Assembly: GCF_001632845.1 (NCBI RefSeq)
Contig: NZ_CP011994.1
Coordinates: 2,800,001-2,864,000, forward strand
DNA from: Ectothiorhodospira sp. BSL-9
Lineage (GTDB): Bacteria; Pseudomonadota; Gammaproteobacteria; Ectothiorhodospirales; Ectothiorhodospiraceae
Length of the DNA stretch: 64,000 nucleotides
Direction of reading: 5' to 3'
In this document: piece by piece, positions 14,575 to 34,596 of the stretch
Numbering within the stretch: position 1 is the first letter of the stretch
Layout: the number at the start of each line of letters is the position of its first letter
Notes under the pieces: generated by a model
What the model was told of the DNA's origin: nothing
Database searches by the model: none
The model's input: the letters and a program-made list of their open reading frames with translations, nothing else
Made by a program: the position numbers and the translations under genes

Positions 14575-14590
14575 GAAACAAACTGTGCGC

Positions 14591-16984: not shown

Positions 16985-17013
16985 TTGACAGTCCCGGGGT
17001 GCCCCTTTATTGT
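16985..17013 (+). promoter_or_regulatory. Sigma-70 type promoter for alaC
   Basis: A perfect -35 TTGACA (16985-16990), 17-base spacer, and TATTGT -10 (17008-17013, 4/6). Predicted transcription start is near 17020, downstream of the in-frame TTG at 17010. This supports GTG 17058 as the real alaC start. Confidence 0.6.
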
Positions 17014-17057
17014 TTCTGGTTTCCCTTTTCCCGACTCTCCAGCCCTTGGAAACACCC

Positions 17058-18257
17058 GTGATCGACGACTTTCCCAGAATCAAGCGTCTTCCGCCGTATG
17101 TCTTCAGCATTGTCAACGACCTGAAGGCCAAGGCCCGCGCCCGGGGCGAGGATGTGATTGATTTCGGCATGGGGAACCCTGATCAGCCCACGCCGCCCCA
17201 TATCGTCGAGAAACTGGTGGAAGTCTCTCGCCGCGGCGACACCCATCGCTATTCCGTATCCAAGGGCATCCCGCGCCTGCGCCGCGCCATCTGCCGCTGG
17301 TACAAGGACAACTACGATGTGGATCTGGATCCGGAGACCGAATCCATTGTCACCATTGGCTCCAAGGAGGGCCTGGCGCATCTGGCCCTGGCCACCCTGG
17401 GGCCCGGCGACGCGGTTCTGGTGCCCAACCCGGCCTATCCCATCCACCCCTATGGGTGCGTGATCGCCGGCGCCGACATCCGTCATGTCCCCCTGACGCC
17501 GGATGTGGATTTCTTCGCGGAACTGGAGCGGGGCATCCAGGAATCCTGGCCGCGCCCGAAGATGCTGATCCTGAATTTCCCGGCCAACCCCACCACCCAG
17601 TGTGTGGACCTGGAATTCTTCGAGAAGGTGGTGGCCATTGCCCGGGAGCACAAGATCTGGGTCGTGCACGATCTGGCCTATGCCGAGATCGTCTTCGATG
17701 GCTACAAGGCCCCCTCCATCCTGCAGGTGCCCGGCGCGAAGGATCTGGCGGTGGAGTTCTACACCCTCTCCAAGAGCTACAACATGCCCGGATGGCGCGT
17801 GGGTTTCATGTGCGGCAATCCCACCCTGGTGGCGGCCCTGGGGCGCATCAAGTCCTACCTGGACTATGGCACCTTCACCCCCATCCAGGTGGCGGCCATT
17901 GCCGCGCTTGAAGGGCCGCAGGACTGCGTGGAAGAGATCCGCCAGCTCTATCTCAACCGCCGCGACGTGCTCTGCGACGGGCTCAATGCCCTGGGCTGGG
18001 AAGTGGAAAAGCCCAAGGCCACCATGTTCGTCTGGGCGCCGATCCCGGAGCCTTACCGGGAAATGGGTTCACTGGAGTTTTGCAAGAAGCTGTTGCGTGA
18101 TGCCAAGGTGGCGGTATCGCCGGGCATCGGTTTCGGCAATCACGGCGATACCCATGTGCGCTTCGGTCTGATCGAAAACGAGCATCGCACCCGCCAGGCC
18201 CTGCGCGGTATCAAGGCCATGTTCCGCGAGGATCAGCGCAAGGCTGAGACCGCTTGA
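17058..18257 (+). CDS. alaC: Alanine transaminase AlaC (class I/II aminotransferase)
   Basis: PLP-dependent aminotransferase (399 residues from GTG 17058) making alanine from pyruvate with glutamate. Family features are [15 protein letters not shown] at the N terminus, [12 protein letters not shown], the [11 protein letters not shown] loop, NFPANPTT, and the PLP lysine in the [14 protein letters not shown] motif. The frame is open back to TTG 17010, but the promoter at 16985 and comparison with family N termini favour 17058. A monocistronic unit: a strong hairpin follows the stop. Confidence 0.92.
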
Positions 18258-18642: not shown

Positions 18643-19008
18643 ATGGCCAAATCAATTCTTACGGTGGACGATTCCGCATCGATTCGCCAGATGGTGTCTT
18701 TCACGCTCAAGGGGGCAGGCTATACCGTCACCGAGGCGGTGGATGGGCAGGACGGCCTGGACAAGGCCCGGTCCGGCAATTTCAACCTGATCTTCACCGA
18801 CCAGAACATGCCCCGTCTCGATGGCCTTGGCCTGATCAAGCAGTTGCGCGCCATGCCGCAGTACAAGAGTGTGCCGATCCTGATGCTCACCACAGAGTCC
18901 GGTGAAGCCATGAAGACACAGGGGCGCGCCGCCGGGGCCACGGGTTGGCTGGTGAAACCCTTCGACCCCCAGAAGCTTCTTGAAGTCGTGCGCAAGGTGA
19001 TCGGCTGA
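18643..19008 (+). CDS. cheY: Chemotaxis response regulator CheY
   Basis: Single-domain receiver of 121 residues. Acidic pocket D9/D10, phospho-acceptor D53 (FTDQNMP), Thr83 and Lys105 (LVKPF) are all in place. It heads the cluster cheY-cheA-cheW-mcp-cheR-cheD-mcp-cheB. The order matches the Che2 cluster of Pseudomonas aeruginosa, where this CheY2 does not simply control flagellar switching, so a non-flagellar output is possible. The preceding gap carries the operon promoter. Confidence 0.93.
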   Translation: MAKSILTVDDSASIRQMVSFTLKGAGYTVTEAVDGQDGLDKARSGNFNLIFTDQNMPRLDGLGLIKQLRAMPQYKSVPILMLTTESGEAMKTQGRAAGATGWLVKPFDPQKLLEVVRKVIG

Positions 19009-19045: not shown

Positions 19046-21436
19046 ATGACCATCGACATGACCCAGTTCTACCAGGTGTTCTTCGACGAAGCCGATGAAC
19101 ATCTGGCGGATATGGAGAGCCTGCTGCTGGAACTGGATGTCGATCAGCCGGATCTGGAGATGCTTAATGCCATCTTCCGGGCTGCCCATTCCATCAAGGG
19201 GGGCGCCGGCACCTTTGGCTTTACGGACATGGCCCGGGTCACCCATATACTGGAGACCCTGCTGGACCGCCTTCGCAAACAGGAGCTTCAGCCCGCCACC
19301 GAGATGGTGGATGCCTTTCTGGAGGCTGGCGATGTGCTCAAGGCACAGCTGCAGGCTCATCGGGAAGGTGAGGAATACCAGGATGAGCGCATCGACCGGG
19401 TCTGTACCTGGCTGGAGCGACTCACCCACGGCGAGCAACCTGCCGGCGCACCCCCACCTGTGGCCCCAACCGCCCCCCCGGCGCAACCCACCCCGGCGCG
19501 GGCGGCTGAGCCCACCTGGAAAATCAGCTTTGACCCCCATGCGTCTGAATTCAAGGCGGATGTCCACCTGGATGCCCTGGCCGAAAGCCTGGGGGAACTG
19601 GGTACCCTGAAGCGGTATTCCGAGGCCACCGGGCGCCCGGTCGTCTGGCACCTTTCGGGCCCCGGGATCAGCCTGGCCAGTATTCAGGAGATCTTTGATT
19701 TCATCTGCGATCTGGATGGCGTGCAGATCGCACCCATGGACGACGCGGAAAAGAGCGCCGCGCCTGCCGCTGACAATGGGGATGAGGCCTTTGGCTTTTT
19801 CGATGAGGCCCCCGGCACACCCCAGGAAGCGGAAGATCCGGGATACGGTTTCTTCACGGACTCCCCTGCCGCGCCCGTTGCGACCCCAACGGAACAAACT
19901 GGCCAGGCCTCGGACAGCGGCTATGGGTTCTTCGAGAACGCCCCGGGTGCGGAGGCCTGCCAGGACACCGACTCAGACGGCTTTGGCCTCTTCGGCAATA
20001 GCCCGGGCATGGAACAGGTGGCCTCTCAGGCCGCCCACGACCGGGAGGAGAACGCCCAGGGCTACGGCCTGTTCGATCCCTCGCCCGGCTATCCCTCATC
20101 GACCCAATCCGGCGATGACAACCCCCGAGGTCAGCCGGAGACGCCAGCAAAAGGCGGTGACTCCGGTGGCGCACCACCGAACAAGGAAAACACGGCCAAA
20201 TCCCAGCCTCCCAAGCGGGGTCCCAGCGGGGATTCCTCCATCCGTGTCAGTGTCGAGAAGGTGGATCAGCTCATCAATCTGGTGGGCGAACTGGTGATCA
20301 CCCACGCCATGCTCGCGGAATCTGCCACCCATCTGGACCCGGTCACTCACGAGAAGATCTTCAGCGGCCTGTCCAACCTGGAACGCAACTCCCGGGACCT
20401 GCAGCAATCCGTCATGTCCATCCGCATGATGCCCATCAGCTTCGTGTTCAATCGCTTCCCCCGGGTGGTGCGCGATACCGCCGCAAGCCTGCAGAAGAAA
20501 GTCACCCTGCGCCTGGTGGGTGAGGACACGGAACTGGACAAGGGGCTCATCGAGCGACTGGCGGACCCACTGAACCATCTGGTGCGCAACAGCATCGACC
20601 ATGGTATTGAATCCCCCGAAAAACGTCGGGCGGCGGGCAAGTCCGAGACGGGTGAGATCGTCCTGCGTGCCAGTCATCAGGGAGGCAATATCGTCATCGA
20701 GGTGAATGATGATGGCGCCGGACTGAATCGGGAAAAACTCCTGGCCAAGGCCACCGAGCGGGGCGTCCCCATGTCGGACAACCCATCCGACAAGGAGGTG
20801 TTCCAGTTGATCTTCGCGGCTGGCTTCTCCACCGCCGACAAGGTGACCGACATCTCCGGTCGTGGCGTGGGCATGGATGTGGTTCGCCGCAACATCGAAC
20901 AGATGAATGGCCGTATCGAGATCGACTCCGCGCCCGGGCAGGGCACACGCATCACCATCCGGCTACCCCTGACCCTGGCCATCCTGGACGGGATGGCCGT
21001 GCGCCTGGGGGACGAGACCTTCATCCTGCCCCTGACCGCCATTCGCGAGTCCATCCAGCCCAAACGGGAACAGTTCAAGACGGTGTCCGGCAAGGGGCGG
21101 GTGCTCAACACCAGCGGGGAGTACCTGCCTCTGGTGGTGTTGCAGGACATCTTCGAGTTAGGGCAGGTCGGCCAGAGCCTCGAGGACAGTATCGTGGTGA
21201 TCGTCGATACCAACGAGGGCCGCATGGCCCTGGTGGTGGATGAACTGATGGCTCAGCAGCAGGTGGTGATCAAGAGTCTGGAAACCAATTATCGCAAGGT
21301 GCGTGGCGTTTCCGGGGCCACCATCCTGGGCGACGGGCGCGTGGCCCTGATCCTGGATGTGGATGAATTGGTGCAACTGAACCAGGAAATGCAGCCCAGA
21401 CGCACAGGCACTTCGGAACAGGGGAATCTGGCATGA
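19046..21436 (+). CDS. cheA: Chemotaxis histidine kinase CheA
   Basis: Cytoplasmic kinase of 796 residues: P1 Hpt domain with phospho-His48 ([12 protein letters not shown]), a second small domain (about 150-240) related to the STAS/P2-like CheA module, a 100-residue linker (about 247-351), P3 dimer helices (about 395-455), P4 ATPase with N-box [12 protein letters not shown]1 DDGAGL and G2 GRGVGMD, and P5 CheW-like domain. The linker carries five copies of a short aromatic motif (GYGFF/GFGLF followed by xxxPG), annotated separately. GAAGGAGGG precedes the ATG. It ends in an ATGA overlap with cheW. Confidence 0.95.
19780..20097 (+). repeat. Five-copy aromatic peptide repeat in the CheA linker
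   Basis: The DNA encodes five spaced units of the pattern Gly-Tyr/Phe-Gly-Phe/Leu-Phe-x-x-x-Pro, mostly followed by Gly, at roughly 20-30 residue intervals ([45 protein letters not shown]). The spacers are acidic, low-complexity and vary in length, so the core motif rather than the whole segment is conserved. This looks like an array of short linear docking motifs between the phosphotransfer and dimerisation domains. Confidence 0.8.
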
Positions 21437-21936
21437 GTGAAGATCTGAAGGATCGGGCCGTCATCACCAGCGATGACAGCCGGGAATACCTTACATTCAC
21501 CCTGGGAGATGAGGAATATGGCATCGATATCCTCAATGTCCAGGAGATCCGTGGCTACGATGCGGTGACCAAGATCGCCAACTCGCCGGATTACATCAAG
21601 GGCGTGATCAATATGCGCGGGGTCATCGTGCCCATCATCGACATGCGCCTGAAGTTTCATCTGGGACAGGTGGAATACAACCAGTTCACGGTGGTGATCA
21701 TCCTCAACATCTCCGGGCGGGTGATCGGCATGGTGGTGGATGGTGTTTCGGATGTGGTCGCTCTCAAGGGAGAGCAGATCCGGCCGGCACCGGAATTTGG
21801 CGCGGTGCTGGACACCGCCTACATCGACGGACTGGCCACGCTGGATGAACGCATGGTGATCGTCGTCGATATCGAAAAACTCATGACCAGCGGCGATATG
21901 GGGCTGGTTGACCGGATTCAGAACGAATCCACCTGA
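21433..21936 (+). CDS. cheW: Chemotaxis coupling protein CheW
   Basis: Cytoplasmic adaptor (167 residues) linking receptors to CheA; a single CheW domain with [24 protein letters not shown] at the N terminus, then [25 protein letters not shown] and the VVDGVSDVV strand. ATG 21433 overlaps the cheA stop by four bases, so it is translationally coupled. A 39-base gap with an AAGGAG site separates it from the downstream receptor. Confidence 0.95.
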
Positions 21937-21975: not shown

Positions 21976-24462
21976 ATGCGTTGGTTCAATAATCTATCGG
22001 CAGGCATCAAGATTGCGCTGCTTGGCGGCGTGTTACTGCTCTCCCTGGCGTATGCGGCCTTCGAGGCCTATCAGGGGTTTACTGGCTGGTCCAATTATTC
22101 CCAGCAGGTCCGCGACAACCGCCTGCCTTCCATGGAGGCCCTCGGTCAGATGAACACCGAGCGCATGGCCATCCGTGCTCAGACGGTGGAAGTCATGCTG
22201 CAGGATGAGGCCTATACGGACAAATCCGCGCTTCGGGACATCGCCCAGCAACGGGCCCGTTCCTGGGAAACCGTTGATCGCTATTGGGAGCAGTTTGCCG
22301 AAATTCCTCGCCTCACCGACGCAGGTCAGCAGCTGTATAACCGTTTGCGCGGTGAATACCAGGCCTGGAGGACCATCTATGTGGACCTGGATGCCCTGAT
22401 CGATAACATGATCCGCACCCAGGATCCCGCTCAGTTCGACGCCTACATGCAGGAGTACCAGGCAACGGTTGAACGCATGATCCCCATCTCCAACACCATG
22501 GGCGCCACCTTCGTGGAACTGGTGGACGGCAACGTGGCCCGGGCCTCTGCCGATGCGGATATGAATGTGGAGACCGCTGCCTCCGAGATCCGTGAGCTGT
22601 TCTGGATTGCTTCCATCGCCATACTCATCTCTGTTGCCCTGGCGGTGCTGACCTTCATCAGCATGGTGCCGCCGCTGCGGTCTCTGGTGGCCAAGTTCGA
22701 TGCCATCGGGGCCGGTGACTACGATCAGGAAATCGAGCAGACCCGCAAGGACGAGGTGGGTAAGGCCCTGAAGGGCCTGGCGGACATGCAGGCCAAACTC
22801 AAGGCGGACATCACTGAGACCAAGCGTGTGGCGGCTGAAAACCTGCGCATCCGATATGCCCTGGATACCGTTTCCTCCAATGTCATGGTCTCTGACACGG
22901 ATGCCCAGATCGTTTACGCCAATGATGCGGTGATCGGCATGTTCCGCAAGGGCGCCAACGACATCCGCAAGGATCTGCCCAACTTCGATCCTGACCGGGT
23001 GCGCGGCTCCAGCATGGATATGTTCCATAAGCGTGCAGCCCATCAGCGTCAGATGACGGAATCCATGCAGTCCACCCACGAAACAGAGATCGTCATCGGC
23101 GGGCGTACCTTCAAGCTCATTGCCAGTCCTATCTTCGATGAGGAAGGCCAGCGTCTGGGGGCGGTTATTGAATGGGCCGACCGCACCGAAGAATTGAAGG
23201 TGGAACGGGAAGTGACGCACCTGGTGGAAGGCGCCGTGAAGGGCGATTTCAACCAGCGTATCGCCACCGAGGAGCTGAGTGGCTTCTTCAAGCGTCTGGG
23301 TGATGCTATGAACCAGCTTGTGGAGCGCACCTCCACGGGTCTGGGTGAGGTGGCCCGAGTGCTCAACGCCGTCGCCGACGGGGATCTGACTCAACGCGTG
23401 ACCGGTGACTACGAAGGCACCTTCGGGCAATTGAAGGAAGACACCAACGCCACCGCCATTCGCCTTCAGGAGCTGATCGGCCAGATCAAGGAGTCCGTGG
23501 ATGCCATCAACACGGCGGCCCGAGAGATTGCAGTAGGCAATACCGATCTGTCCCAACGCACCGAGGAACAGGCTTCCAGCCTGGAGGAAACCGCTTCCAG
23601 CATGGAAGAGTTGACCTCAACGGTGAAGCAGACGGCCGACAATGCCCGCCAGGCCAACCAGCTCTCGATCAACGCCCGCGATGTGGCCAGCCGGGGTGGT
23701 GATAAGGCCAGGGAGGCCATGGATTCCATGAAGGCCATCACGGAAAGCGCCGACAAGATCGGCGAGATCATCACCGTGATCGACGGCATTGCCTTCCAGA
23801 CCAACATCCTGGCCCTGAACGCAGCGGTGGAGGCAGCCCGGGCCGGGGAACAGGGTCGGGGCTTTGCCGTGGTGGCTGGCGAGGTGCGCAACCTGGCACA
23901 GCGCTCGGCCGCCGCCGCCAAGGAGATCAAGGCCTTGATCGCCGAGGATACGGCGACCATCGAGACCGGCAGCAAGCAGGTACTTGCCGCCGGACAGACC
24001 ATGGGAGAGATCGTCAACGAAGTGAAGCGGGTCTCGGATCTCATTGCCGAAATCACCGCCGCGGCCGATGAGCAAAGCACGGGTATCGAGCAGGTCAACA
24101 GCGCCGTCACCCAGATGGACGAGGTCACGCAGCAGAATGCCTCGCTGGTGGAGGAGGCCGCTGCGGCTGCCGAGTCCCTGGAGGAGCAGGCCCAGGGTCT
24201 GGCGCGTGCGGTCAGCGTGTTCCGGGTGGATGAGGGTGCCATGGGTTCTGGCGGCCATCAGTTACCGGCGGCTTCCAAGGCCCCCAGCCGGGCTCTGCCA
24301 GCCGCGAACAAGGCTCAATCCGGGCGCCCGGCGACCGCTGGCAAAGCGGCCACCGGTAGCAGCAGCAAGCCCCCGCAGGGCAAGGCAGTGGGTGGTGGCG
24401 CGAAGCCGGGCAACCGGCCCGCCTCGCGTGCCAACCCGGACGATGAGTGGGAAGAGTTCTGA
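21976..24462 (+). CDS. PAS-containing methyl-accepting chemotaxis protein with C-terminal EWEEF pentapeptide
   Basis: Receptor of 828 residues: TM1 (about 11-33), a periplasmic four-helix-type sensor (about 35-205), TM2 (about 210-235), a HAMP, a cytoplasmic PAS domain (about 295-415, [21 protein letters not shown]), a second HAMP-like region (about 430-500), and the signalling hairpin with [30 protein letters not shown] at its tip. A Pro/Ala/Lys-rich tether leads to the very C-terminal Glu-Trp-Glu-Glu-Phe. This fits the x-W-x-x-F CheR/CheD docking peptide and closely resembles GWEEF of P. aeruginosa McpB/Aer-2, which recruits its own CheR2. Ligands are unknown; PAS-HAMP arrays often sense redox or oxygen. 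Confidence 0.92.
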
Positions 24463-24501: not shown

Positions 24502-24522
24502 GCCCGGTGCCTTGCACCGGGC
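24502..24522 (+). repeat. Perfect hairpin between the receptor gene and cheR
   Basis: GCCCGGTGC-CTT-GCACCGGGC: 9-bp perfect stem with a 3-base loop, 40 bases after the receptor stop and 24 bases before the cheR ATG. No U-run follows. It could lower expression of the downstream cheRD-mcp-cheB genes, stabilise the upstream message, or occlude the poor cheR ribosome site. Confidence 0.6.
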
Positions 24523-24545
24523 TCACATCGCCAGCGGTCACGCCC

Positions 24546-25379
24546 ATGCGTGACCGGGAATTCGATTTCAGGGACGCCGACTTCGAGCGAATCCGGCGAA
24601 TGATTTATGAATATGCCGGCATCTCGCTCAATCCGGGCAAACGGGACATGGTCTACAGCCGTGTGGCCCGGCGCCTGCGTCAGGCGGGCCTGAATTCCTT
24701 TGAGGCCTATCTGGATCGCCTGGAGGTGGATGCCGAGGAATGGCAGCACTTTGTTAATTCGCTGACCACCAACCTCACTTCCTTTTTCCGGGAGGCCCAT
24801 CATTTTCCGGTGCTCTCTGAGCATGCCACCCGGATGCACGGCAGCCATCGACGCACGCTGAGGATCTGGTCGGCCGGATGCTCCACTGGGGAGGAGCCGT
24901 TTTCCATCGCCATGACCCTGATCGACACGTTCGGCAGCTGGACGCCGCCCGTGAAGATCCTGGCCACGGACCTGGATACGCAAGTGGTGCGCCATGCGGC
25001 CGAAGGCATCTATCCCATGGAGCGCATCGAAAAGATGCCGCAGAATGATGTGAAACGCTTTTTTCTGCGGGGCAAGGGCAGTCGTGAGGGCATGGTGCGG
25101 GTCAGGCCTCAGGTGCGGGAACTCGTCACCTTCGAGTCGCTCAATCTGCTGGGGCCGAGCTGGCCACTCAAGGAACCCTTTGATGCCATCTTTTGCCGCA
25201 ATGTGTTGATCTATTTCGACAAGCCCACCCAGTACCGGCTGCTGTCCAGGTTTCATCCCTTGCTGCATCCGGAGGGCCTGTTGTTCGTGGGGCATTCGGA
25301 GAGCCTGGCCCATGCCTCCGATCTGTTCCGCTTGCAGGGCAAGACGGTCTGTGTGCCGGTGGCGAGGGGGCGCCCATGA
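24546..25379 (+). CDS. cheR: Chemotaxis protein methyltransferase CheR
   Basis: SAM-dependent glutamate methyltransferase (277 residues). The N-terminal helical domain (FERIRRMIYEYAGISLNPGKRDMVYSRVARRLR) precedes the SAM pocket IWSAGCSTGEEPFSIAM (about residues 108-124) and the DAIFCRNVLIYFD motif. The frame extends to GTG 24507, but that start would lie inside the hairpin at 24502-24522; ATG 24546 gives the family-typical N terminus. The stop overlaps the cheD ATG (ATGA), so CheR and CheD are coupled. It likely docks on the EWEEF tail of the upstream receptor (inference from the P. aeruginosa McpB/CheR2 pair). Confidence 0.93.
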   Translation: MRDREFDFRDADFERIRRMIYEYAGISLNPGKRDMVYSRVARRLRQAGLNSFEAYLDRLEVDAEEWQHFVNSLTTNLTSFFREAHHFPVLSEHATRMHGSHRRTLRIWSAGCSTGEEPFSIAMTLIDTFGSWTPPVKILATDLDTQVVRHAAEGIYPMERIEKMPQNDVKRFFLRGKGSREGMVRVRPQVRELVTFESLNLLGPSWPLKEPFDAIFCRNVLIYFDKPTQYRLLSRFHPLLHPEGLLFVGHSESLAHASDLFRLQGKTVCVPVARGRP

Positions 25380-25987
25380 GCGAAGGTTTCGAGGAGGTCC
25401 TGGCACCCAACCTGTACTATGACCGGCACTTCGACATGGATGCCGTCAAGATACTGCCGGGAGAGTACTACGTCTCCAATCGGGAGCTGCTGATGGTGAC
25501 TGTACTGGGCTCCTGTGTGGGGGCCTGCGTCAGGGATCGTCTGCGGGGCATTGGGGGCATCAATCACTTCATGCTGCCCGACGACAAGCGCAACGAGGAC
25601 AGTCGCGTGGGCAGTTCCATGCGCTATGGGGATTACGCCATGGAGATCCTGATCAACCAGCTGATCAAGCTGGGGGCGCGTCGGGAAAACCTGGAGGCCA
25701 AGGTATTCGGTGCCGGCAATGTGCTGCCCGGGTTCAAAAGCAATATCGTCGGAGAGCGCAACGCCCAGTTTGTCACCGATTACCTGGCGACGGAGGGCAT
25801 TCCCATCGCGGCAAAGGACTTGCTCGGTAATCACCCGCGCAAGGTTTACTTCTTCCCCACCACCGGGCGGGTACTCGTGAAGAAACTGCGCAGTCTGCAC
25901 AACGAGACCATCATCGAGCGGGAACTGAGCTACAGCCAGAAACTGCGCCAGGCCAAGGTGTCCGGCGAAGTGGAACTGTTCGACTGA
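25376..25987 (+). CDS. cheD: Chemoreceptor glutamine deamidase CheD
   Basis: Deamidase of 203 residues converting receptor Gln to methylatable Glu. The catalytic Cys sits in LGSCVGACV, the His in GGINHFMLP, with the expected RYGDYAMEILINQLIKLGA and KVFGAGNVL strands. The open frame extends to 25193 inside cheR, but ATG 25376 overlaps the cheR TGA and yields the normal length. The last residues are Val-Glu-Leu-Phe-Asp, strikingly like the Ile-Glu-Leu-Phe end of the next gene product. Confidence 0.93.
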   Translation: MSEGFEEVLAPNLYYDRHFDMDAVKILPGEYYVSNRELLMVTVLGSCVGACVRDRLRGIGGINHFMLPDDKRNEDSRVGSSMRYGDYAMEILINQLIKLGARRENLEAKVFGAGNVLPGFKSNIVGERNAQFVTDYLATEGIPIAAKDLLGNHPRKVYFFPTTGRVLVKKLRSLHNETIIERELSYSQKLRQAKVSGEVELFD

Positions 25988-26008
25988 CGTATGCGAGGAG
26001 ACCGATTC

Positions 26009-27238
26009 ATGCAGGGCTTAGGAATGGAGGCAATCACACGGGCGCTCACACCCCACTGGCCAGCGGTGATGACCAGTGTGGCCGCCATCGTCGTCTGGGT
26101 GCTGCTGTCGCTGCCTGCCTGGCCCGGCATGCTGTTGATCGCCCTGGCCTGGGTCGGCTCCCTGCTCTGGCAGGCCCGTGATGGCGTCCATGCCGGACAG
26201 GCAGCCCAGGCCCTGGCCGATGAACAGCAGGGCACACTGGACAGTGACCGGGAGTTATGGAACCTGGTTGTTGAGATTGATGCCCTCATGGCGCCGGAGA
26301 CAAGCGAGTTACGCACACTGGTGGGGCAGGCCCGGGAATTGATCCGGGATGCCGTGCGTGATCTGCAGGACAGTTTCCACAACCTGAACCAGACGTCCCG
26401 GGAACAGCAGGAACTGGCGCTGAGACTCATCAAGGGCATGTCCAGCGATGCTCAGGGGACCTCCAGTGTTGAGGCCATCGACATGGACCACTTCATGGAG
26501 GAGAACGGCAAGGTGCTGGCCCAGAACGTGCAAATGCTCATCGACATGGGCAAGCACAGCGTGGAGGTGGCTCATCATGTGGACGATCTCTCCAGCCTGA
26601 TGAATGAGATCTTCGGGCTGCTCGACAGTGCCAAGCACATCGCCGGACAAACCAACCTGCTGGCTCTGAACGCTGCCATTGAGGCGGCCCGTGCCGGGGA
26701 GGCGGGCCGGGGATTTGCCGTGGTGGCCCAGGAGGTGCGCAAGCTCTCCCGGGATTCGGATAAGTTCAATGAGCAGATCCGCGCCCAGGTGGAACAGGCC
26801 AACCGACTCTTTGGTGATGCCCGCGAGGTGGTTGGCCGCATGGCCTCACAGGATCTGAACACATCCATCACGGCCAAAGGCAGCATGGATGAGATGATGG
26901 AGCAGCTGCAGAAGCTCAATCAGAGCCTGTCCGAGGGGCTGGATCATATGTCCGGCGTGGCCGAGCGCGTGCAGCAGAATGTGGATGCGGCGGTCAGGCT
27001 GTTGCAGTTCGAGGACATTGCGGGTCAGGTGCTTGACCGGGCCCATACACGCATCGACTTCATGGAACGCTTTGTCTCCGAGCTGCGCCAACTTCCCATG
27101 GTGGAGCCGCAAAGATCGCAGCAACAGCTGGAACAGGCCCGCGGTCGGCTCAAGGCGCTGCGTGAGGAGTTACGGGATGCTGCCCACCGTCCCGTGCATC
27201 AAAAATCCATGGACGAAGGTGATATTGAACTCTTCTGA
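26009..27238 (+). CDS. Short membrane-anchored methyl-accepting-type signalling protein lacking a ligand domain
   Basis: Protein of 409 residues with two closely spaced N-terminal hydrophobic helices (about 15-60) joined by almost no periplasmic segment, a helical stalk, and an MCP signalling tip ([35 protein letters not shown], about 220-260). After the hairpin comes a conserved [19 protein letters not shown] helix rather than typical methylation helices. ATG 26009 is preferred over 25991 because GAGGAG lies 8 bases ahead. It ends in Asp-Ile-Glu-Leu-Phe. Lying between cheD and cheB, it is probably an accessory scaffold or CheA-array partner; possible CheZ-like helix content near the C terminus is speculation. 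Confidence 0.85.
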
Positions 27239-27287
27239 TGCGATGCCCGTGGCCAATACAAGAAGTTCAAAGCTGAGGAAGGGCACC

Positions 27288-28346
27288 GTGGGGAAGCCGA
27301 TACGGGTACTGGTGGTCGACGATTCAGCGTTGGTGCGCAAGCTTCTGACGGAGGTTCTGAACTCAGTCGAGGGCATTGAGGTGGTGGGCACGGCCCAGGA
27401 CCCGTATGTGGCGCGAGAGCGCATCAAGAGCCTTGATCCAGACGTGCTGACCCTGGATGTGGAAATGCCGCGCATGGATGGCCTGACCTTCCTGCGCAAC
27501 CTGATGCGTCTGCGCCCCATGCCCGTGGTAATGGTGTCCTCGCTCACCGAGCGGGGGGCCGAGGTTACCATGCAGGCCCTGGAGCTGGGCGCTGTGGATT
27601 TTGTCACCAAGCCCGCCCTGGATCTGGCCAATACCCTCAACGCCTACCGCGATGAGTTGGCTGCCAAGGTCAAGGTTGCGGCCGGGGCCAGGGTACGCAC
27701 CCTGGCAGCAGTGAAACCCAAGCATTCCGTCGACGAGATCCTGCCTGCCAAGGCCGTGGGGCACTGGCGTACCACGGACCGCCTGCTGGCCATCGGCGCC
27801 TCCACCGGGGGAACCGAAGCGGTGAAGGATGTTCTCATTGACCTGCCACCGGACAGCCCTGCCGTGGTCATTGCCCAGCACATCCCCGCAGGTTTCAGTG
27901 GCGCGTGGGCGCAGCGCATGAATCGGCAGAGCCGACTGGTGGTCAAGGAGGCCGAGGAGGGCGAGCGCCTGATGGCTGGCCATGCCTACGTGGCACCCGG
28001 AGATCAGCATCTGATGGTGGCCCGGGATGGGGCCCGCTACGTCTGCCGCCTGAATATGGCCGAACCGGTCAATCGCCATCGGCCCAGCGTGGATGTGCTG
28101 TTTCGTTCCGTGGCCCAGGCCGCGGGCAAGAATTCCTGCGCCGCTCTGCTCACCGGCATGGGGGCCGACGGTGTGCAGGGCCTCAAGGAGCTGCATGACA
28201 TGGGCGTGGAGACCATTGCCCAGGACGAAGCCACCAGCGTGGTCTGGGGGATGCCTGGAGAGGCCGTGAAGCGGGGTGCGGCCTCCCAGGTGCTGCCTCT
28301 GGACCGGATTGCCGAGGCCATGCTGAAGGCCTCCCGCGTGCGCTGA
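27288..28346 (+). CDS. cheB: Chemotaxis protein-glutamate methylesterase/response regulator CheB
   Basis: Two-domain protein (352 residues from GTG 27288): receiver (VVDDSA, phospho-Asp in TLDVEMPRMDG, Lys in FVTKPA) and CheB methylesterase with the Ser of IGASTGGTEAV, His of IAQHIPAGFS and Asp of LTGMGADGVQG. The frame extends back to ATG 27243, but GAGGAAGGG (27275-27283) sits just ahead of GTG 27288, and the protein then begins immediately before the first receiver strand, as in E. coli CheB. A hairpin follows the stop, closing the chemotaxis part of the region. Confidence 0.93.
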   Translation: MGKPIRVLVVDDSALVRKLLTEVLNSVEGIEVVGTAQDPYVARERIKSLDPDVLTLDVEMPRMDGLTFLRNLMRLRPMPVVMVSSLTERGAEVTMQALELGAVDFVTKPALDLANTLNAYRDELAAKVKVAAGARVRTLAAVKPKHSVDEILPAKAVGHWRTTDRLLAIGASTGGTEAVKDVLIDLPPDSPAVVIAQHIPAGFSGAWAQRMNRQSRLVVKEAEEGERLMAGHAYVAPGDQHLMVARDGARYVCRLNMAEPVNRHRPSVDVLFRSVAQAAGKNSCAALLTGMGADGVQGLKELHDMGVETIAQDEATSVVWGMPGEAVKRGAASQVLPLDRIAEAMLKASRVR

Positions 28347-28358
28347 CGCCCTTAAATA

Positions 28359-28376
28359 TTTGGGCATGCGCCCAAA
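28359..28376 (+). terminator. Hairpin after cheB
   Basis: Stem TTTGGGC / GCCCAAA (7 bp) with an ATGC loop, 12 bases after the cheB stop. On the plus strand it is followed by AAATC rather than U-rich sequence, so termination would be weak; it separates the che genes from the STAS module. Confidence 0.5.
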
Positions 28377-28440
28377 AATCTGAGATCATCCTCACAATTC
28401 TTGCCGCTATTTCCTATTTTCGCCCTCGCTGGAGTCTGGT

Positions 28441-28746
28441 ATGAGCATCAAACGTCACGTCGATGAAAAGACCAACCTGGTGACGATATCCGTGGGTGGT
28501 CGGTTTGATTTCGCCCAACACAAGGCCTTCCGTGACGCCTATCGGGATCTGCCCGCCCAGGGCACCCGCTATCGGGTGGACCTGAGCGAAGCCACGTACC
28601 TGGATAGTTCGGCCCTGGGCATGTTGCTGCTGCTCCGGGAGCACGCCGGTGGCGATACGGCCCGGGTGAGCCTGCGGGGCTGTAGCGACGATGTACGCCG
28701 CGTCCTCAAGATTGCCAATTTCGATCGCCTTTTCACCCTGGAGTAA
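28441..28746 (+). CDS. STAS-domain anti-sigma factor antagonist, HsbA-like
   Basis: Small cytoplasmic protein (101 residues) made of one STAS domain. The phosphorylation loop reads YLDSSALGMLLLL, with Ser56/Ser57 at the position used by SpoIIAA-type antagonists and by HsbA of P. aeruginosa. RBS GGAG is 7 bases ahead of the ATG. It is followed 11 bases later by the REC-PP2C-ATPase gene, the same pairing as hsbA/hsbR, where the phosphatase/kinase toggles the STAS protein and thereby frees either FlgM or a diguanylate cyclase. Neither of those partners is in this window. The HsbA identity is inference from domain and order. Confidence 0.88.
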   Translation: MSIKRHVDEKTNLVTISVGGRFDFAQHKAFRDAYRDLPAQGTRYRVDLSEATYLDSSALGMLLLLREHAGGDTARVSLRGCSDDVRRVLKIANFDRLFTLE

Positions 28747-28757
28747 CCCCCCACCCC

Positions 28758-30497
28758 ATGTCACGCGACGCCCATCCAAGCCCCATTCGGGAATCCGGGA
28801 TCACGCACGCCGTTGCTCCGGTCGATTCCCGCGGGCTGGCGCTGGTGGTGGACGATGAACCCACCAATCGCCGGCTGCTGGCGCGCATGCTCAAGAAGGA
28901 GGGTTTCGACACTCTGGAGGCGGAGAGCGGCGCCCGGGCCATCGAGCTGTTCGAGCAGTCGCCGCCGGATATCGTCTTCATGGATGTGATGATGCCGGTG
29001 ATGGATGGGTTCGAAGCGACCCGGCGGATCAAGGCCATGGCCGGCTTTGATTTCGTGCCGGTGATCTTTCTCACCGCGCTGCACGATGAAAAGTCCCTGG
29101 TGCAATGCACGGAGTCGGGGGGAGACGATTTTCTTACCAAGCCCTTCAACTTCAGCATCCTCAAGGCACGCATCACGGCCATGGAACGGGTGCGCGATCT
29201 GCAGCGCATCATCGCCGGCAAAAACCGGGAACTGGAGCAACTCCTGGAGCAGGACCGCCAGGAGCAGAAGCTGGCCGAACGGGTATTCAGTCGGGCCGTG
29301 AACGACCGTAATGTGCATACGGAACAGTTCGGGCTGGTGCAGCGGCCCGCCACCACGTTCAACGGCGATCTGGTGCTCACCCAGGACCTTCCCGATGGGG
29401 GCGTGCGTATCCTCCTGGGGGATTTCACCGGCCATGGCCTCGCGGCCGCCATTGGCGCGCTGCCCGTGGCCGAGACCTTTCGCACCATGACCCGCAAGGG
29501 GGTGGATGACGAGCAGGTGCTGGACGAGATCAATCGCAAGCTGTATCGCGTGCTGCCGCCGGAACGCTTCATGGCCGCCTGCCTGGTGTCCATCCCCGGC
29601 TCCGGTCGTGAGATCCGCTGGTGGAACGGGGGCATGCCCAGTGCCTGGTTACGCACCCAGGAGGGCCTGCAGGAACTGGCTTCCCATGCCTTGCCGCTGG
29701 GTATCCTGCCGGAGCTGTCGGACCGGGAAACGCCCCGGCGCGTGGCGGTGCGTCGTGATGATCGACTGCTGATGATGAGTGATGGTCTGCTGGAGGCCCG
29801 TGATCCGGGTGGGCGCATGTTCATGGATCACGGTTTTGCCGGGGTGCTGGAGGCATGGACCCACGGCGGGGCGGTACTCCCCGACCTGTTGCAGGCCCTC
29901 GAGGAGCACTGCGCCGACCAGCGGCCGGAGGATGATGTTGCCATTCTGGAAACCCCCCTGGACCCGGAGCTTTTCAGCCGTCCGCCCGTGAGTCGTGAAA
30001 GACACCCGGAAGGGGGATGGACCTGGTCGCTGACGCTGGAGGACGAGCGTCTTGGGGACTTGCCCTCGCTGGAGTCCGCCCTGCGTCCACTGGGATTGCT
30101 GGATGGCCTGGAGGAGGATGCCGGCCCTCTGGAAACCATTGTCAACGAGCTCTACAGCAACGCCCTGGAGCACGGGGTGCTGCGACTGGACTCTCCCATG
30201 AAGGCCGACCCGGACGGATTTTGCAACTATTATCAGGAACGGGGTCGCCGCCTGGCCGAGGGTTGTCGGGGACGTGTGGATGTGAGCGTGGCCTATGAGC
30301 CCGGTGAGACGCACGGCATGTTACGGGTAAAAATCAGTGATTCCGGCCCGGGGTTTGACACCCAACAGTGGGACGATGTGTCGCTGGACACCACCCGCCC
30401 CTGGGGCCGTGGCATCGCCCTGGTGCGGGATCTGTGCGATGCGGTGGTTTTTGACGATTCTGGCTCCCGGGTGGAGGCCGTTTATCGGTGTCGCTAA
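28758..30497 (+). CDS. Response regulator with SpoIIE-type PP2C phosphatase and C-terminal HATPase domain, HsbR-like
   Basis: Cytoplasmic protein of 579 residues with three parts: receiver (about 27-145, phospho-Asp in VFMDVMMPVMDG, Lys in LTKPF), coiled coil (about 150-180), PP2C/SpoIIE phosphatase (about 190-400, metal Asp residues in LLGDFTGHG, MMSDGLLEA and PEDDVAI), and anti-sigma-like ATPase (about 430-579, N-box ETIVNELYSNALEHG, G1 DSGPGFD, G2 WGRGIAL). This is the HsbR architecture: phosphorylation of the receiver selects between phosphatase and kinase action on the STAS partner. The C terminus overlaps the kinase gene start by 10 bases, so its phosphodonor is probably the neighbouring hybrid kinase. 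Confidence 0.9.
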   Translation: MSRDAHPSPIRESGITHAVAPVDSRGLALVVDDEPTNRRLLARMLKKEGFDTLEAESGARAIELFEQSPPDIVFMDVMMPVMDGFEATRRIKAMAGFDFVPVIFLTALHDEKSLVQCTESGGDDFLTKPFNFSILKARITAMERVRDLQRIIAGKNRELEQLLEQDRQEQKLAERVFSRAVNDRNVHTEQFGLVQRPATTFNGDLVLTQDLPDGGVRILLGDFTGHGLAAAIGALPVAETFRTMTRKGVDDEQVLDEINRKLYRVLPPERFMAACLVSIPGSGREIRWWNGGMPSAWLRTQEGLQELASHALPLGILPELSDRETPRRVAVRRDDRLLMMSDGLLEARDPGGRMFMDHGFAGVLEAWTHGGAVLPDLLQALEEHCADQRPEDDVAILETPLDPELFSRPPVSRERHPEGGWTWSLTLEDERLGDLPSLESALRPLGLLDGLEEDAGPLETIVNELYSNALEHGVLRLDSPMKADPDGFCNYYQERGRRLAEGCRGRVDVSVAYEPGETHGMLRVKISDSGPGFDTQQWDDVSLDTTRPWGRGIALVRDLCDAVVFDDSGSRVEAVYRCR

Positions 30498-32109
30498 ACG
30501 ACGGGAACAGTGCGTTTTATCAGTCCCTGGAGGAACGCCTCCGGTGGCAGACCCGTGCCATGGAGGCCATGGTGAACGGGATTGCCATCGCCGATGCGAC
30601 TCAGCCGGATAGCCCGTTGGTGTACGTGAACCCGGCCTTCGAGCACATGACCGGTTACCGGGCAGACGAGGTGCTGGGTACCAACTGCCGTTTCCTGCAA
30701 GGGGATGATCGGGATCAACCCGGCGTTCGGGAATTGCGTGATGCCGTGGTTGAAGGGCGGGCCACGAAGGTGTTGATACGCAATTACCGCAAGAATGGGG
30801 AATTGTTCTGGAACGAGTTCAGCATCTCACCAGTGCGCAACGACGCGGGTGTAGTGACCCATTACGTGGGGATTCAGCAGGACGTTACCGAACTCATGCA
30901 GGCCATGGAGGCTCTGCGCCAGGCCAAGGCGGAGGCCGACCGGGCCAATCAGGCCAAGTCCGACTTTCTCTCCCGCATGAGCCACGAACTGCGCACTCCC
31001 ATGAATGCGGTCCTGGGGTTTGCCCAGTTGCTGGAACTGGACCCGGAACTGAACAACGAACAGCAGGAAAACGTCGAGGAGATCATCCGCGGCGGCAGGC
31101 ACCTTCTGGACCTGATCAACGAGGTGCTGGATCTGGCCCGGGTGGAATCGGGCCGGGTGGAGCTGACTCCCGAGCCCCTGGAACTCCAGGGCTTGATGGA
31201 CGAATGCCTGGCCCTGGTTGAGCCACTGGCCAGGGAGAATGACCTGGAGATTTGCAGCGGCCAGGATCTGTCGGGGCATTACGTGCGGGCCGACCGGGTC
31301 AGGCTGAAACAGGTTCTCATCAACCTGCTCTCCAACGCCATCAAGTACAACCGGCCCCAGGGTCAGGTGACTGTTGACCTGGAGCCAGCTCGTGAGGTCC
31401 CCCAGGGAGTGCGCATTCGGGTGTCCGATACCGGGGGGGTATCCCGAACGAACGCATCACCGAGCTGTTTCAACCCTTCACAAGACTGGTGGAGGACCAG
31501 CACACGGTGGAGGGCAGTGGCATCGGCCTGGCCATCACCCAGCGCCTGGTGCACCTCATGGAGGGGCGCATTGGTGTCTACAGTCAGGTAGGGGAGGGCA
31601 GCACCTTCTGGGTGGAACTGCCCAAGGACATCCCAACGGTGGAGGCGCCGGATCGGCAGCCCTCGACCTCCTCGCCCAGGACCACGACAGAACAACCGGA
31701 ATCAGGGTGCAAGATCCTTCAGATCGAGGACAATACTGCCAACCTGCGCCTGCTTGAGCGGCTGCTCAAGCGCCATGACGCCTTCAGTGTGCTCAGTACG
31801 GAAGACCCCTACATCGGCCTGGAACTGGCGCAGGAGCACTGTCCGGATGTGATCATTCTGGACATCCAGATTGCCCGTCTGGATGGCTTCCAAGTGCTGG
31901 AACAATTGCGGAGTCATGCGGCCACACGTGACATTCCCGTGCTGGCCCTCACGGCCAATGCCACGGAATCGAACCGTCAGCGCGGCCTGGAGGCTGGCTT
32001 CGACGCTTACCTGACCAAACCCCTGAATCTGGAGGAGTTGCTTGATACACTTCGCACACTCCTCTCTCAGGATAGAGCCAACCGCCCCGGTAACAAGGTG
32101 CGCCAGTGA
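30488..32109 (+). pseudogene. PAS hybrid histidine kinase, frameshifted in the ATPase domain
   Basis: Two overlapping frames encode one protein. Frame 1 from GTG 30488 gives PAS (about 20-140, LOV-like NCRFLQG motif), coiled coil and HisKA (SHELRTPMN) and the start of the ATPase (N-box NLLSNAIKYN, then VSDTG). It then loses phase at a run of seven G (31433-31439). The other frame continues IPNERITELFQPF, G2 (GSGIGLAIT), and a C-terminal receiver (about 415-530) to 32109. One extra G restores DTGGGIPNE and a 540-residue protein. As written, the kinase lacks its G2 box and receiver. It could be a sequencing error, a true mutation, or poly-G phase variation. Confidence 0.88.
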
Positions 32110-33209
32110 ACAGCCATGACCTTTCCCGCAACTCCCATCAAGAGCCCGAGCGCAAGGCAGCCCGGATCATGGTGGTGGACGATGAACGGGCCAACCTGAT
32201 CCTGATGGACCGCCTGCTGCGTACCGAGGGCTATTCCAACCTGGCCCTGGTACAGGACCCCCGGGAGGTGATCGCCACTTATCGCCAGGCACCCACCGAC
32301 CTGATCCTGCTGGACATCAAGATGCCGCACATGAACGGCTTTGAGGTGATGGAGCAGTTCGCCGCGCTGAATGACCCCCTGGTCCCGCCTATTCTCGTGC
32401 TCACGGCTCAGCACAGCCGCGACTACATGCTTCGGGCCCTGAGTAACGGTGCCCGGGATTTCATCGGCAAACCGTTTGATCGGGCTGAAGTGCTGGCACG
32501 GGTACGCAACATGCTGGATGTGCAGCTGGCGCACCGCATGACCCACGACCAGAAAGACATGCTGGCGCAACTGGTGCATGAACGCACCGAGGAGATCCGG
32601 CGTACCCGCCTGCAGGTGGTGCAGCGTCTGGGGCGCGCCTCGGAATACCGGGATAACGAGACCGGGTGCCACATCCTGCGCATGAGTCACATCTCGGCCC
32701 TGCTGGCCCAGCATGTGGGCTGGGATCGTGATCAATGCGAGCGCATGCTCCATGCCAGCCCCATGCACGACGTGGGCAAGATTGGCATTCCCGACCAGAT
32801 CCTGCTCAAACCAGGCAAGCTCACGCCCGATGAGTGGGAGATCATGAAGACCCATGCCACCATCGGCGCCGACATCCTCAGTGGCGATGATTCCGATCTG
32901 CTGCTCATGGCCCGGGAGATCGCCCTCACGCACCACGAAAAATGGGACGGCAGTGGCTACCCCAACGGCCTGGCCGGTCATGATATTCCCATGACCGGTC
33001 GCATCTGCGCCCTGGCGGATGTCTTTGACGCCCTGACCTCCTGGCGGCCCTACAAGAAGGCCTGGACCGTGGACGATGCTCTGGATTTCATCCGCAACGG
33101 GGCAGGGCATCATTTCGACCCGGATCTTACCGAACTCTTCTTCAGCCTGGTGCCCGACATCCTGGCCATCCGCGAGCGTTTTCCAGAACCCATTCCCGAG
33201 GCCGACTGA
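32106..33209 (+). CDS. Response regulator with HD-GYP c-di-GMP phosphodiesterase domain
   Basis: Cytoplasmic protein of 367 residues: receiver (about 20-140; phospho-Asp in LLDIKMPHMNG, Lys in IGKPF), linker helix, then HD-GYP (about 170-350) with the HD pair in MHDVGKIGIPD and the full HHEKWDGSGYP motif, so hydrolysis of c-di-GMP is expected. The start is GTG 32106, overlapping the kinase stop (GTGA). It closes the coupled module STAS / REC-PP2C-ATPase / hybrid kinase / REC-HD-GYP. The adjacent kinase is the likely phosphodonor, tying the partner switch to c-di-GMP removal (inference). Confidence 0.93.
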   Translation: MNSHDLSRNSHQEPERKAARIMVVDDERANLILMDRLLRTEGYSNLALVQDPREVIATYRQAPTDLILLDIKMPHMNGFEVMEQFAALNDPLVPPILVLTAQHSRDYMLRALSNGARDFIGKPFDRAEVLARVRNMLDVQLAHRMTHDQKDMLAQLVHERTEEIRRTRLQVVQRLGRASEYRDNETGCHILRMSHISALLAQHVGWDRDQCERMLHASPMHDVGKIGIPDQILLKPGKLTPDEWEIMKTHATIGADILSGDDSDLLLMAREIALTHHEKWDGSGYPNGLAGHDIPMTGRICALADVFDALTSWRPYKKAWTVDDALDFIRNGAGHHFDPDLTELFFSLVPDILAIRERFPEPIPEAD

Positions 33210-33285: not shown

Positions 33286-34596
33286 TTGGAACCCGTCAAA
33301 GTCGGCCTGTTGGGCCTTGGGACCGTGGGCAGCGGCACGGTCAGAGTGCTCAAGCGCAATAGCGACGAGATCACCCGCCGGGCTGGTCGTGGTATCGAAC
33401 TCGTGGCGGCTGCGGCCCGCAATCTGGACTCCCTGGGCGATCTGGACGTGAGTGGCATGCGCCTCACCGAAGAAGCCCTGGAGGTGGTGGACGACCCTCA
33501 GGTTCAGGTGATCGTCGAACTGATCGGGGGCACGACACTGGCCCGGGAACTGGTGCTGCGGGCCATTGACCAGGGCAAGCATGTGGTGACGGCCAACAAG
33601 GCCCTGATCGCCCTGCACGGCAACGAGATCTTCAGTCGCGCTCAGGAGCGTGGCGTGATGGTGGCCTTTGAGGCCGCCGTGGCGGGTGGTATCCCCATCA
33701 TCAAGGCCATCCGCGAGGGCCTGACCGGCAACCGCATTGAATGGCTGGCCGGCATCATCAACGGCACCGGCAACTTCATCCTCACCGAGATGCGCGACAA
33801 GGGGCGGGAGTTCGCCGATGTGCTGGCGGAGGCCCAGCGCCTGGGTTACGCGGAGGCCGATCCCACCTTTGATGTGGAAGGGGTGGACGCGGCCCACAAG
33901 CTGACCATCCTGGCCTCCATTGCCTTTGGCATCCCACTGCAGTTCGACCGGGTGTATACCGAGGGCATCTCCGGCATCTCCCGGGATGATGTGGTCTACG
34001 CCAACGAACTGGGCTACCGCATCAAGCATCTGGGCATTGCCCGCCGGGCCAATGGCGGCATCGAACTGCGGGTGCATCCCACCCTGATTCCCGAGCGGCG
34101 CCTGATCGCCAACGTGGACGGCGTACTCAATGCCGTGCTGGTCTGGGGCGATGCCGTGGGCCCGACCCTTTACTACGGCCCCGGGGCCGGTTCCGAGCCC
34201 ACCGCCTCAGCAGTGGTGGCAGACCTGGTGGACGTGGTGCGTGCCCTGACCACTGACCCGGAAAACCGGGTGCCGCATCTGGCCTTCCAGGCCGATGCCC
34301 TGTCGGATGTTTCCATCCTCTCCATGGACGACGTGCAAACCGCCTTCTACCTGCGCCTGCGGGTGCTGGACCGTCCGGGCGTGATGGCTGATATCACCCG
34401 GATCCTGGCGGACCTGGACATCAGCATCGAGGCCATCATGCAGAAGGAGCCGGATGAAGACACCCAGGAGGCCGATGTGATCATGCTGACCCACCAGGTG
34501 CGCGAGGGTAATCTCAACCAGGCCATCGGCCGTATCGAGGCCCTGGACAGCGTGATCACCCCGGTGACCCGTATCCGCCTGGAAAACCTCAAGTAA
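33286..34596 (+). CDS. hom: Homoserine dehydrogenase
   Basis: NAD(P)-dependent oxidoreductase (436 residues) reducing aspartate semialdehyde to homoserine. It has the Rossmann motif GLLGLGTVGSGTV (about 5-17), the substrate site ANKALIA and GGIPIIKAIREGL, and a C-terminal ACT domain (about 350-430) for threonine feedback. It is a stand-alone enzyme, not fused to aspartate kinase. It starts at TTG 33286 with TAGGAG 7 bases ahead; no ATG or GTG nearby fits. It forms an operon with thrC, 36 bases downstream; thrB is absent from the window. Confidence 0.94.
   Translation: MEPVKVGLLGLGTVGSGTVRVLKRNSDEITRRAGRGIELVAAAARNLDSLGDLDVSGMRLTEEALEVVDDPQVQVIVELIGGTTLARELVLRAIDQGKHVVTANKALIALHGNEIFSRAQERGVMVAFEAAVAGGIPIIKAIREGLTGNRIEWLAGIINGTGNFILTEMRDKGREFADVLAEAQRLGYAEADPTFDVEGVDAAHKLTILASIAFGIPLQFDRVYTEGISGISRDDVVYANELGYRIKHLGIARRANGGIELRVHPTLIPERRLIANVDGVLNAVLVWGDAVGPTLYYGPGAGSEPTASAVVADLVDVVRALTTDPENRVPHLAFQADALSDVSILSMDDVQTAFYLRLRVLDRPGVMADITRILADLDISIEAIMQKEPDEDTQEADVIMLTHQVREGNLNQAIGRIEALDSVITPVTRIRLENLK

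Follow-up and report, generated by a model that had tools for sequence, protein, structure and literature searches.

The 64,000-nucleotide stretch analysed here, from the genome of Ectothiorhodospira sp. BSL-9, a purple sulfur bacterium (G000:C1:2800001-2864000, part of a 3.55-Mb contig and referred to below as the window) carries a four-gene module at the end of a chemosensory gene cluster. The module encodes a STAS protein, a regulator with receiver (REC), PP2C phosphatase and ATPase domains, whose gene is called the switch, a PAS hybrid kinase and a REC-HD-GYP protein. We consider it fairly probable that a dedicated chemosensory array here drives a CrsR-CrsA-type RpoS switch and, as a second output, a cyclic di-GMP (c-di-GMP) phosphodiesterase. 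The observations behind this reading are the gene content, the intact motifs, the anti-sigma-like fold of a structural model, the neighbourhood and the co-occurrence of the genes among relatives; from them we infer every phosphotransfer and binding step, RpoS as the target and the polarity. The closest named relative among the matches listed is Ectothiorhodospira haloalkaliphila ATCC 51935, whose REC-PP2C protein is 96% identical.

A probable partner switch behind a chemosensory cluster

The four genes lie on the forward strand, in the order STAS, REC-PP2C, kinase and HD-GYP, with intergenic gaps of 11, -10 and -4 bases. A preliminary description of this DNA had proposed the STAS, REC-PP2C-ATPase and REC-HD-GYP genes with this spacing, directly behind a chemosensory cluster, and both points were confirmed by open reading frames (ORFs) and Pfam matches: the order cheY-cheA-cheW-mcp-cheR-cheD-mcp-cheB (mcp encoding a methyl-accepting chemotaxis protein, MCP) stands immediately upstream of the STAS gene on the same strand. 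From cheY to the HD-GYP gene the largest gap is 94 bp, two start codons being approximate. Scans for promoters and terminators gave no more sites than shuffled sequences (2 versus 3.8 and 8 versus 9.3), and an inverted repeat in the cheB-STAS intergenic stretch (about 28357-28380) was dropped as a candidate, being partly kept in loci L113 and L114 and not in L116.

The REC-PP2C-anti-sigma-kinase protein adjoins the STAS protein, as in the CrsR-CrsA sigma-S switch, and no other gene of the genome gives a SpoIIE/PP2C match above the family cut-off. Motifs are present in its receiver (FMDVMMP), its phosphatase (LGDFTGHG, SDGLLEA and EDD) and its ATPase (ELYSNALEHG, DSGPGF and GRGIAL), and the STAS protein has the motif DSSALG. 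In the STAS protein HsbA, the phosphorylated residue is a serine within this motif. An AlphaFold2 model of residues 415-579 of the REC-PP2C protein (mean pLDDT 87.3) gave 15 Foldseek matches in the PDB at E ≤ 0.001; the best two are Leptospira LvrC, and the other 13 are chains from anti-sigma factor entries (SpoIIAB, RsbW, UsfX and a sigF complex). With moderate TM-scores by query length (0.42-0.63), the model suggests an anti-sigma kinase fold for the C-terminal domain, which also matches HATPase_c_2 over the cut-off. When the whole protein was searched by sequence against the PDB, nearly all of the best 60 of 178 matches covered REC only, and entry 3eq2 spanned REC and PP2C.

The HD-GYP protein retains the motifs HDVGK and HHEKWDGSGYP (Pfam HD_5, 6.5e-36) and, judged by these, is probably a c-di-GMP phosphodiesterase. 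One further HD-GYP match lies elsewhere in the genome. No GGDEF domain was found among the module proteins scanned by Pfam, a genome-wide GGDEF search not having been made.

Relatives of the REC-PP2C protein were sampled as the best 80 of at least 563 related loci. From 99 loci examined, 29 with under 85% coverage and one with an internal stop were left out, and 69 entered a quick tree, which includes Pseudomonas schmalbachii and two Vibrionaceae rows and no sequence from Shewanella or P. aeruginosa. The window protein belongs to an 18-row clade (SH-aLRT 100) in which every row has che genes within about 10 kb; the P. schmalbachii protein and the two Vibrionaceae proteins are placed elsewhere, none of them as its sister. 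Over the whole tree, che genes are near in 35 of the 69 rows, a label that needs at least 10 changes. A PLSDB match in Vibrio sp. THAF191d lies in a stretch without annotated feature and was used as sequence only.

A match to the second MCP is found at most 3.2 kb from the REC-PP2C gene in 34 of the 69 loci, a short locus of this same genome (L003) counting as a miss. At other loci, too, an MCP-like gene is frequently the immediate upstream neighbour of the STAS gene. Eleven of these 34 (L045, L051-L053, L055, L056, L058, L061, L071, L075 and L080) have no che gene in the examined stretch, and a receptor-STAS-PP2C trio may exist without a local che cluster.

Co-inheritance, the kinase slot and the site near rpoS

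The distribution of these genes was followed in 47 genomes of the order, a switch being defined as a match at E ≤ 1e-50; the window's genus is denoted g1, and g3, g4 and g5 are other genera of the same family. The switch is present in 22 genomes and absent from 25. An orthologue of the HD-GYP protein (at least 62% identity) is found in 12 of the 47, namely nine g1 genomes, G012, G013 and G017, all of them switch-positive, at a distance of at most 17 kb from the switch, and in 0 of the 25 switch-negative genomes. This bears out the tie between phosphodiesterase candidate and partner switch that the preliminary description had supposed. Weaker matches comprise a second copy of 50% identity in G013 and one of 55% over residues 9-168 only in G054 (66% complete); the remaining matches reach at most 47%, eight of the 25 switch-negative genomes among them. 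Taken together, g1, g4 and g5 (16 genomes) hold both genes in 12 cases and neither in four (G006, G015, G019 and G021, the last 82% complete). Both states are found within g1 and again within g4, which suggests at least two joint gains or losses of switch and HD-GYP gene.

The cluster-type CheA (409 bits or more) occurs in 21 of the 47 genomes, all switch-positive, and the best CheA score in the switch-negative ones is 342.5 bits. It lies about 10 kb or less from the switch in 18 of the 21, and on a separate contig in G020 and G044. A chance neighbourhood of the che, STAS, REC-PP2C and HD-GYP genes was rejected on their recurrence and co-occurrence in relatives. On this comparison of sequences, the best reading of the HD-GYP protein is that of an added phosphodiesterase candidate co-inherited with the switch.

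The hybrid kinase behaves differently. It had been described as a single gene and proposed as the dedicated input of a self-contained circuit; its domains (PAS, HisKA, HATPase and REC) are as described, but in the window they are split over two ORFs in different frames, 30488-31591 with PAS, HisKA and the first half of HATPase, and 31489-32109 with the rest of HATPase and REC. The span measures 1622 bp here, against 1623 bp and one open frame of 540 amino acids in G007 and G009, and a single PAS-HisKA-HATPase-REC frame is also seen in G001 and G008. The sole run of six or more G in the span is one of seven at 31433, inside the HATPase region, and the kinase gene of G007 and G009 has no such run.

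The two ends of the contig (L146 and L147) share a stretch of at least 19.9 kb, which aligns with 15 gap positions and 0 mismatches; 14 of the gaps lie in the contig's first 2.4 kb and the remaining one at 4231, in a run of about six G. Single-base indel errors therefore occur in the assembly, mostly at its very end, and the break in the kinase frame may for this reason be an assembly artefact. Programmed frameshifting or phase variation at the seven-G run is possible but not favoured, given the single open frame of G007 and G009 and their lack of such a run. The contig looks uncircularised, and flgM, which matches it at 4923 and 3532625, is probably single-copy, because the terminal overlap carries both copies. 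A tandem duplication lies near flgM inside this overlap (G000:C1:9280-13546, in L146), its adjacent 2.1-kb stretches being 99.25% alike, with 16 mismatches.

Among the nine switch-positive g1 genomes, a kinase stands between switch and HD-GYP gene in five: in G007 and G009 the four-gene order is repeated with the 540-residue kinase, in G001 and G008 the kinase is longer (823 and 824 amino acids), and in G000, the window's genome, it is broken. The other four (G002-G005) have none and still keep STAS, REC-PP2C and HD-GYP. The order is thus not peculiar to this genome; had it been, this would have spoken against the preliminary description. Kinases downstream of the switch outside g1, taken as mechanical ORFs, measure 1042 (G013), 1166 (G017) and 1368 amino acids (G012). 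The input part of the slot varies and the slot may be empty. The kinase is a variable accessory of the module, because it is intact in relatives and absent from four of the nine; as a core part it was rejected on G002-G005. The idea of a dedicated input falls on the same absence, on lengths of 823-1368 amino acids elsewhere and on the frameshift here.

The presumed target is encoded close by. In the window, rpoS lies 13.3 kb upstream of the REC-PP2C gene, and its start is 12.8-13.4 kb upstream of the switch, on the same strand, in all nine switch-positive g1 genomes (window included). The borders of the block are an alanine transaminase gene, which we take to be alaC, and hom, which is followed by a thrC-like gene (Pfam). 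The alaC-hom interval is 15.0 kb in the window. In G006 (g1), G015 and G019 (both g4), which have no switch, rpoS is still upstream of alaC-hom, and these two genes are separated by 41-61 bp, measured from the last aligned alaC codon to the first hom codon. Because this site is empty in three relatives and the switch sits at other sites in G012, G013 and G017, the che-switch-HD-GYP block behaves as one unit, carried whole or lacking altogether, and seated at different places.

At the level of the class, 71 of 369 genomes have a switch-type match, and 68 of these (all but G000, G001 and G011) were searched for RpoS, with a match in 51. On shared contigs, the two genes are separated by 11 kb in G112 and by 6 kb in G243 (both of family f67), by about 28 kb in G156, G272 and G370 (f111), and by 66 kb or more in the others. 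Two families, that of this genus and f67, therefore fall within 13 kb, against about 0.3 expected by chance (about 35 families at about 1% each); the estimate was made after the fact and many assemblies are fragmented, so linkage in two families is suggestive, not strong. In G243 (L151, 4519-18244) the genes run hom, MCP, STAS, REC-PP2C, receiver, kinase and rpoS, the switch lying again between hom and rpoS in another arrangement.

Table 1. Genes of the module, the chemosensory cluster and the flanks, in window coordinates.
Feature	Position	Strand	Evidence
STAS protein, CrsA/HsbA-like	28441..28746	+	Pfam STAS_2 1.4e-18; motif DSSALG at residues 55-60
REC-SpoIIE(PP2C)-HATPase_c_2 protein, CrsR/HsbR-like, predicted anti-sigma-fold kinase	28758..30497	+	Pfam; motifs; model of residues 415-579
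PAS-HisKA-HATPase-REC hybrid kinase, frame broken near 31433	30488..32109	+	Pfam; two ORFs
REC-HD-GYP protein, c-di-GMP phosphodiesterase candidate	32106..33209	+	Pfam; motifs; co-occurrence with switch
CheY-like receiver	18643..19008	+	Pfam
CheA (Hpt, dimer domain, HATPase, CheW), proposed phosphodonor	19046..21436	+	Pfam
CheW	21433..21936	+	Pfam
MCP (four-helix bundle, HAMP, PAS, HAMP), Aer2-like from PAS onward	21976..24462	+	Pfam; NCBIfam
CheR	24507..25379	+	Pfam
CheD, start approximate	25373..25987	+	Pfam on longer ORF 25193-25987
Second MCP	25991..27238	+	Pfam; neighbour analysis
CheB, start approximate	27273..28346	+	Pfam on longer ORF 26979-28346
nlpD-like (LysM and peptidase M23)	14585..15439	+	Pfam
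rpoS, sigma-S, proposed switch target	15473..16540	+	NCBIfam RpoS equivalog 491 bits, cut-off 394
alaC-like alanine transaminase, left border gene	17010..18257	+	NCBIfam equivalog 'alanine transaminase'
hom, homoserine dehydrogenase, right border gene	33286..34596	+	Pfam

The gene before rpoS is presumably nlpD, which habitually precedes it. The first MCP matches the NCBIfam Aer2 family over residues 278-772 with 492 bits, below the cut-off of 1200; with its N-terminal four-helix bundle and HAMP domain, it is possibly a membrane-bound relative of Aer2. Gene content and this Aer2-like MCP are what suggest the F7 chemosensory class for the cluster.

Proposed mechanism and competing explanations

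In the proposed mechanism, the receptors would set the activity of CheA, which, with the accessory hybrid kinase where present, would phosphorylate the receiver of the REC-PP2C-kinase protein. This would tip the balance between phosphatase and serine kinase acting on the STAS protein, and the phosphorylation state of the STAS protein would in turn determine if RpoS is bound or released by the C-terminal anti-sigma-fold domain. The REC-HD-GYP protein would probably respond to that phosphate source too, and c-di-GMP breakdown would then vary in step with the availability of sigma-S. CheA appears the likelier phosphodonor, because 21 of the order's 22 switch genomes encode it, and the hybrid kinase is absent from four of the nine g1 genomes. 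The polarity cannot be read from sequence; it differs between Shewanella and Pseudomonas.

Several observations weigh against this mechanism. In G012 the HD-GYP gene lies 16 kb upstream of the switch on the opposite strand, and therefore co-transcription is not universal; ten g3 switch genomes (G011, G014, G018, G020, G022, G043, G044, G045, G048 and G054) have no HD-GYP orthologue, and therefore the switch does not need it. CheA is 944 kb from the switch in G013, and switch-positive G054 has only a 330-bit match to it. Within the order, linkage to rpoS is confined to this genus: of the 13 switch genomes outside it, 11 carry rpoS and the switch on different contigs, G013 has them 2.4 Mb apart, and G054 has no RpoS match; in G020 the switch lies 4 kb from a contig end, so that rpoS may still be linked there. 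The genomes of the order are related, and the counts are not independent events. Background synteny reaches beyond the unit in G003 and the flanking genes are syntenic too, so that gene order within the genus reflects inheritance in part and is weak evidence alone. FlgM, the other described target of HsbA, is encoded in the genome as well, and the involvement of Che1 in RpoS regulation is given only as possible by the Shewanella authors (PMC9855816).

The frame chosen in the preliminary description, in which the main input comes from the PAS hybrid kinase, the STAS protein acts on FlgM/FliA in the manner of HsbA, and the HD-GYP protein lowers c-di-GMP in favour of motility, seems to us distinctly unlikely. 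It can point to the overlaps of 10 and 4 bases between the kinase gene and its two neighbours in G000, G007 and G009, to the binding of HsbA to FlgM reported for P. aeruginosa (PMC6482189), and to FlgM itself, which the search proposed in that description did find, about 0.7 Mb from the module. However, the kinase is missing from G002-G005, which keep the rest, and is frameshifted in the window; no stand-alone histidine phosphotransfer (Hpt) protein of the HptB kind was found in the genome to connect its REC domain, all nine Hpt matches (9/9) lying in frames of 717 amino acids or more; and rpoS is 13 kb from the switch, far closer than flgM. HptB and FlgM are not the best frame for the module, because the STAS and REC-PP2C genes close a che cluster whose gene content is that published for Shewanella Che1 with CrsR-CrsA; both rpoS and the likely chemosensory input had been missed.

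More weight, still well short of an even chance, is given to the HD-GYP protein being a passenger that travels with the cluster, answers another kinase and serves another pathway. Its separate, opposite-strand place in G012, the ten switch-positive genomes without it and the other HD-GYP match in this genome agree with such a role. The joint presence or absence of the two genes throughout g1, g4 and g5 argues against it, as does the retention of the HD-GYP gene despite the other sites of the unit in G012, G013 and G017 and the absence of the kinase from G002-G005. Least probable is that slow rearrangement alone explains the layout, the cluster being an ordinary alternative chemosensory system with no sigma-S role. 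The synteny beyond the unit in G003 fits this account, and so does the adjacency of rpoS, alaC, hom and thrC without the unit in G006, G015 and G019, from which it follows that the rpoS distance results from the insertion site. Yet the STAS and REC-PP2C pair has its catalytic motifs, the 18-row clade has che genes nearby throughout, and control of RpoS is reported for the homologous pairs in Shewanella and Pseudomonas (PMC6482189).

A bolder form of the proposed RpoS switch, which we would put on a par with the passenger role, has the STAS protein pair with both the anti-sigma domain and the HD-GYP protein, so that its phosphorylation state would free RpoS and directly change c-di-GMP hydrolysis at the command of an array encoded near rpoS. 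If true, the STAS-HD-GYP pairing would mirror, with opposite sign, the action of HsbA on the cyclase HsbD. With the array, the switch, rpoS and the phosphodiesterase candidate as neighbours, and with related strains that have or lack the kinase or the entire unit, the locus is a compact system for testing both array control of RpoS and the connection of the general stress response to c-di-GMP.

Relation to known systems

The likeness to HsbA and HsbR noted in the preliminary description stands as that of a homologous pair, but the closest layout is that of Shewanella Che1 with CrsR-CrsA, acting on RpoS (PMC9855816, PMC6482189; Shewanella is compared by published description only). The che1 locus of Shewanella oneidensis, of class F7, comprises CheA1, Y1, W1, R1, D1, B1, two MCPs, CrsR and CrsA (PMC9855816), the same ten gene kinds as here, and CrsR is the same three-domain REC-PP2C-anti-sigma regulator (PMC9855816, PMC6482189). 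By comparison, rpoS is 13 kb from the regulator in the window, the REC-HD-GYP gene, and sometimes a hybrid kinase, follows the regulator, and the second MCP stands between cheD and cheB. The anti-sigma domains of CrsR and HsbR are reported to interact with RpoS in two-hybrid tests, and the binding polarity of the switch differs between Shewanella and Pseudomonas (PMC6482189).

The HptB-HsbR-HsbA-HsbD pathway of Pseudomonas shares with the module a homologous STAS and REC-PP2C-ATPase pair and a link to c-di-GMP (PMC5085249, PMC6482189). It differs in that a stand-alone Hpt protein is found beside hsbR there, as reported for the operon hsbA-hsbR-hptB (PMC5085249) and as seen in P. schmalbachii (L065, also beside FliK), and none was found in this genome; moreover, P. 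aeruginosa employs a diguanylate cyclase where a phosphodiesterase candidate stands here.

RssB of Pseudomonas acts as a sigma-S adaptor. Its family (NCBIfam NF045505; REC plus a PP2C-like domain) aligns with the window protein over residues 28-397, a weak match of 69.5 bits against a cut-off of 700, and 3eq2, a solved Pseudomonas-type regulator, aligns over the same stretch; the window protein differs in its GDFTGHG-type PP2C motifs and its extra anti-sigma-fold domain. The biochemical logic is that of Bacillus RsbU-RsbV-RsbW and SpoIIAB, and the C-terminal model matches the SpoIIAB and RsbW structures, although here a single protein combines phosphatase, kinase and receiver and presumably takes its input from a two-component source. 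Streptomyces RmdB likewise couples c-di-GMP breakdown to sigma factor release, in its case the release of sigma-WhiG from an anti-sigma factor by a phosphodiesterase; unlike the HD-GYP protein, it is a GGDEF-EAL protein that itself binds the sigma factor, and its abstract mentions neither a STAS switch nor a chemosensory array (PMC13232838).

The combination had been thought little described. Without the HD-GYP protein it is already described, as Shewanella Che1-CrsRA; for an HD-GYP protein joined to a partner switch, in Ectothiorhodospira or elsewhere, no report was found among the literature matches listed; a 2018 comparative paper on such partner switches may, by its title, include similar layouts. 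By its gene content, the unit appears to be a Che1-CrsRA-type system with two changes, its position near rpoS and the co-inherited REC-HD-GYP protein, which look like new variations.

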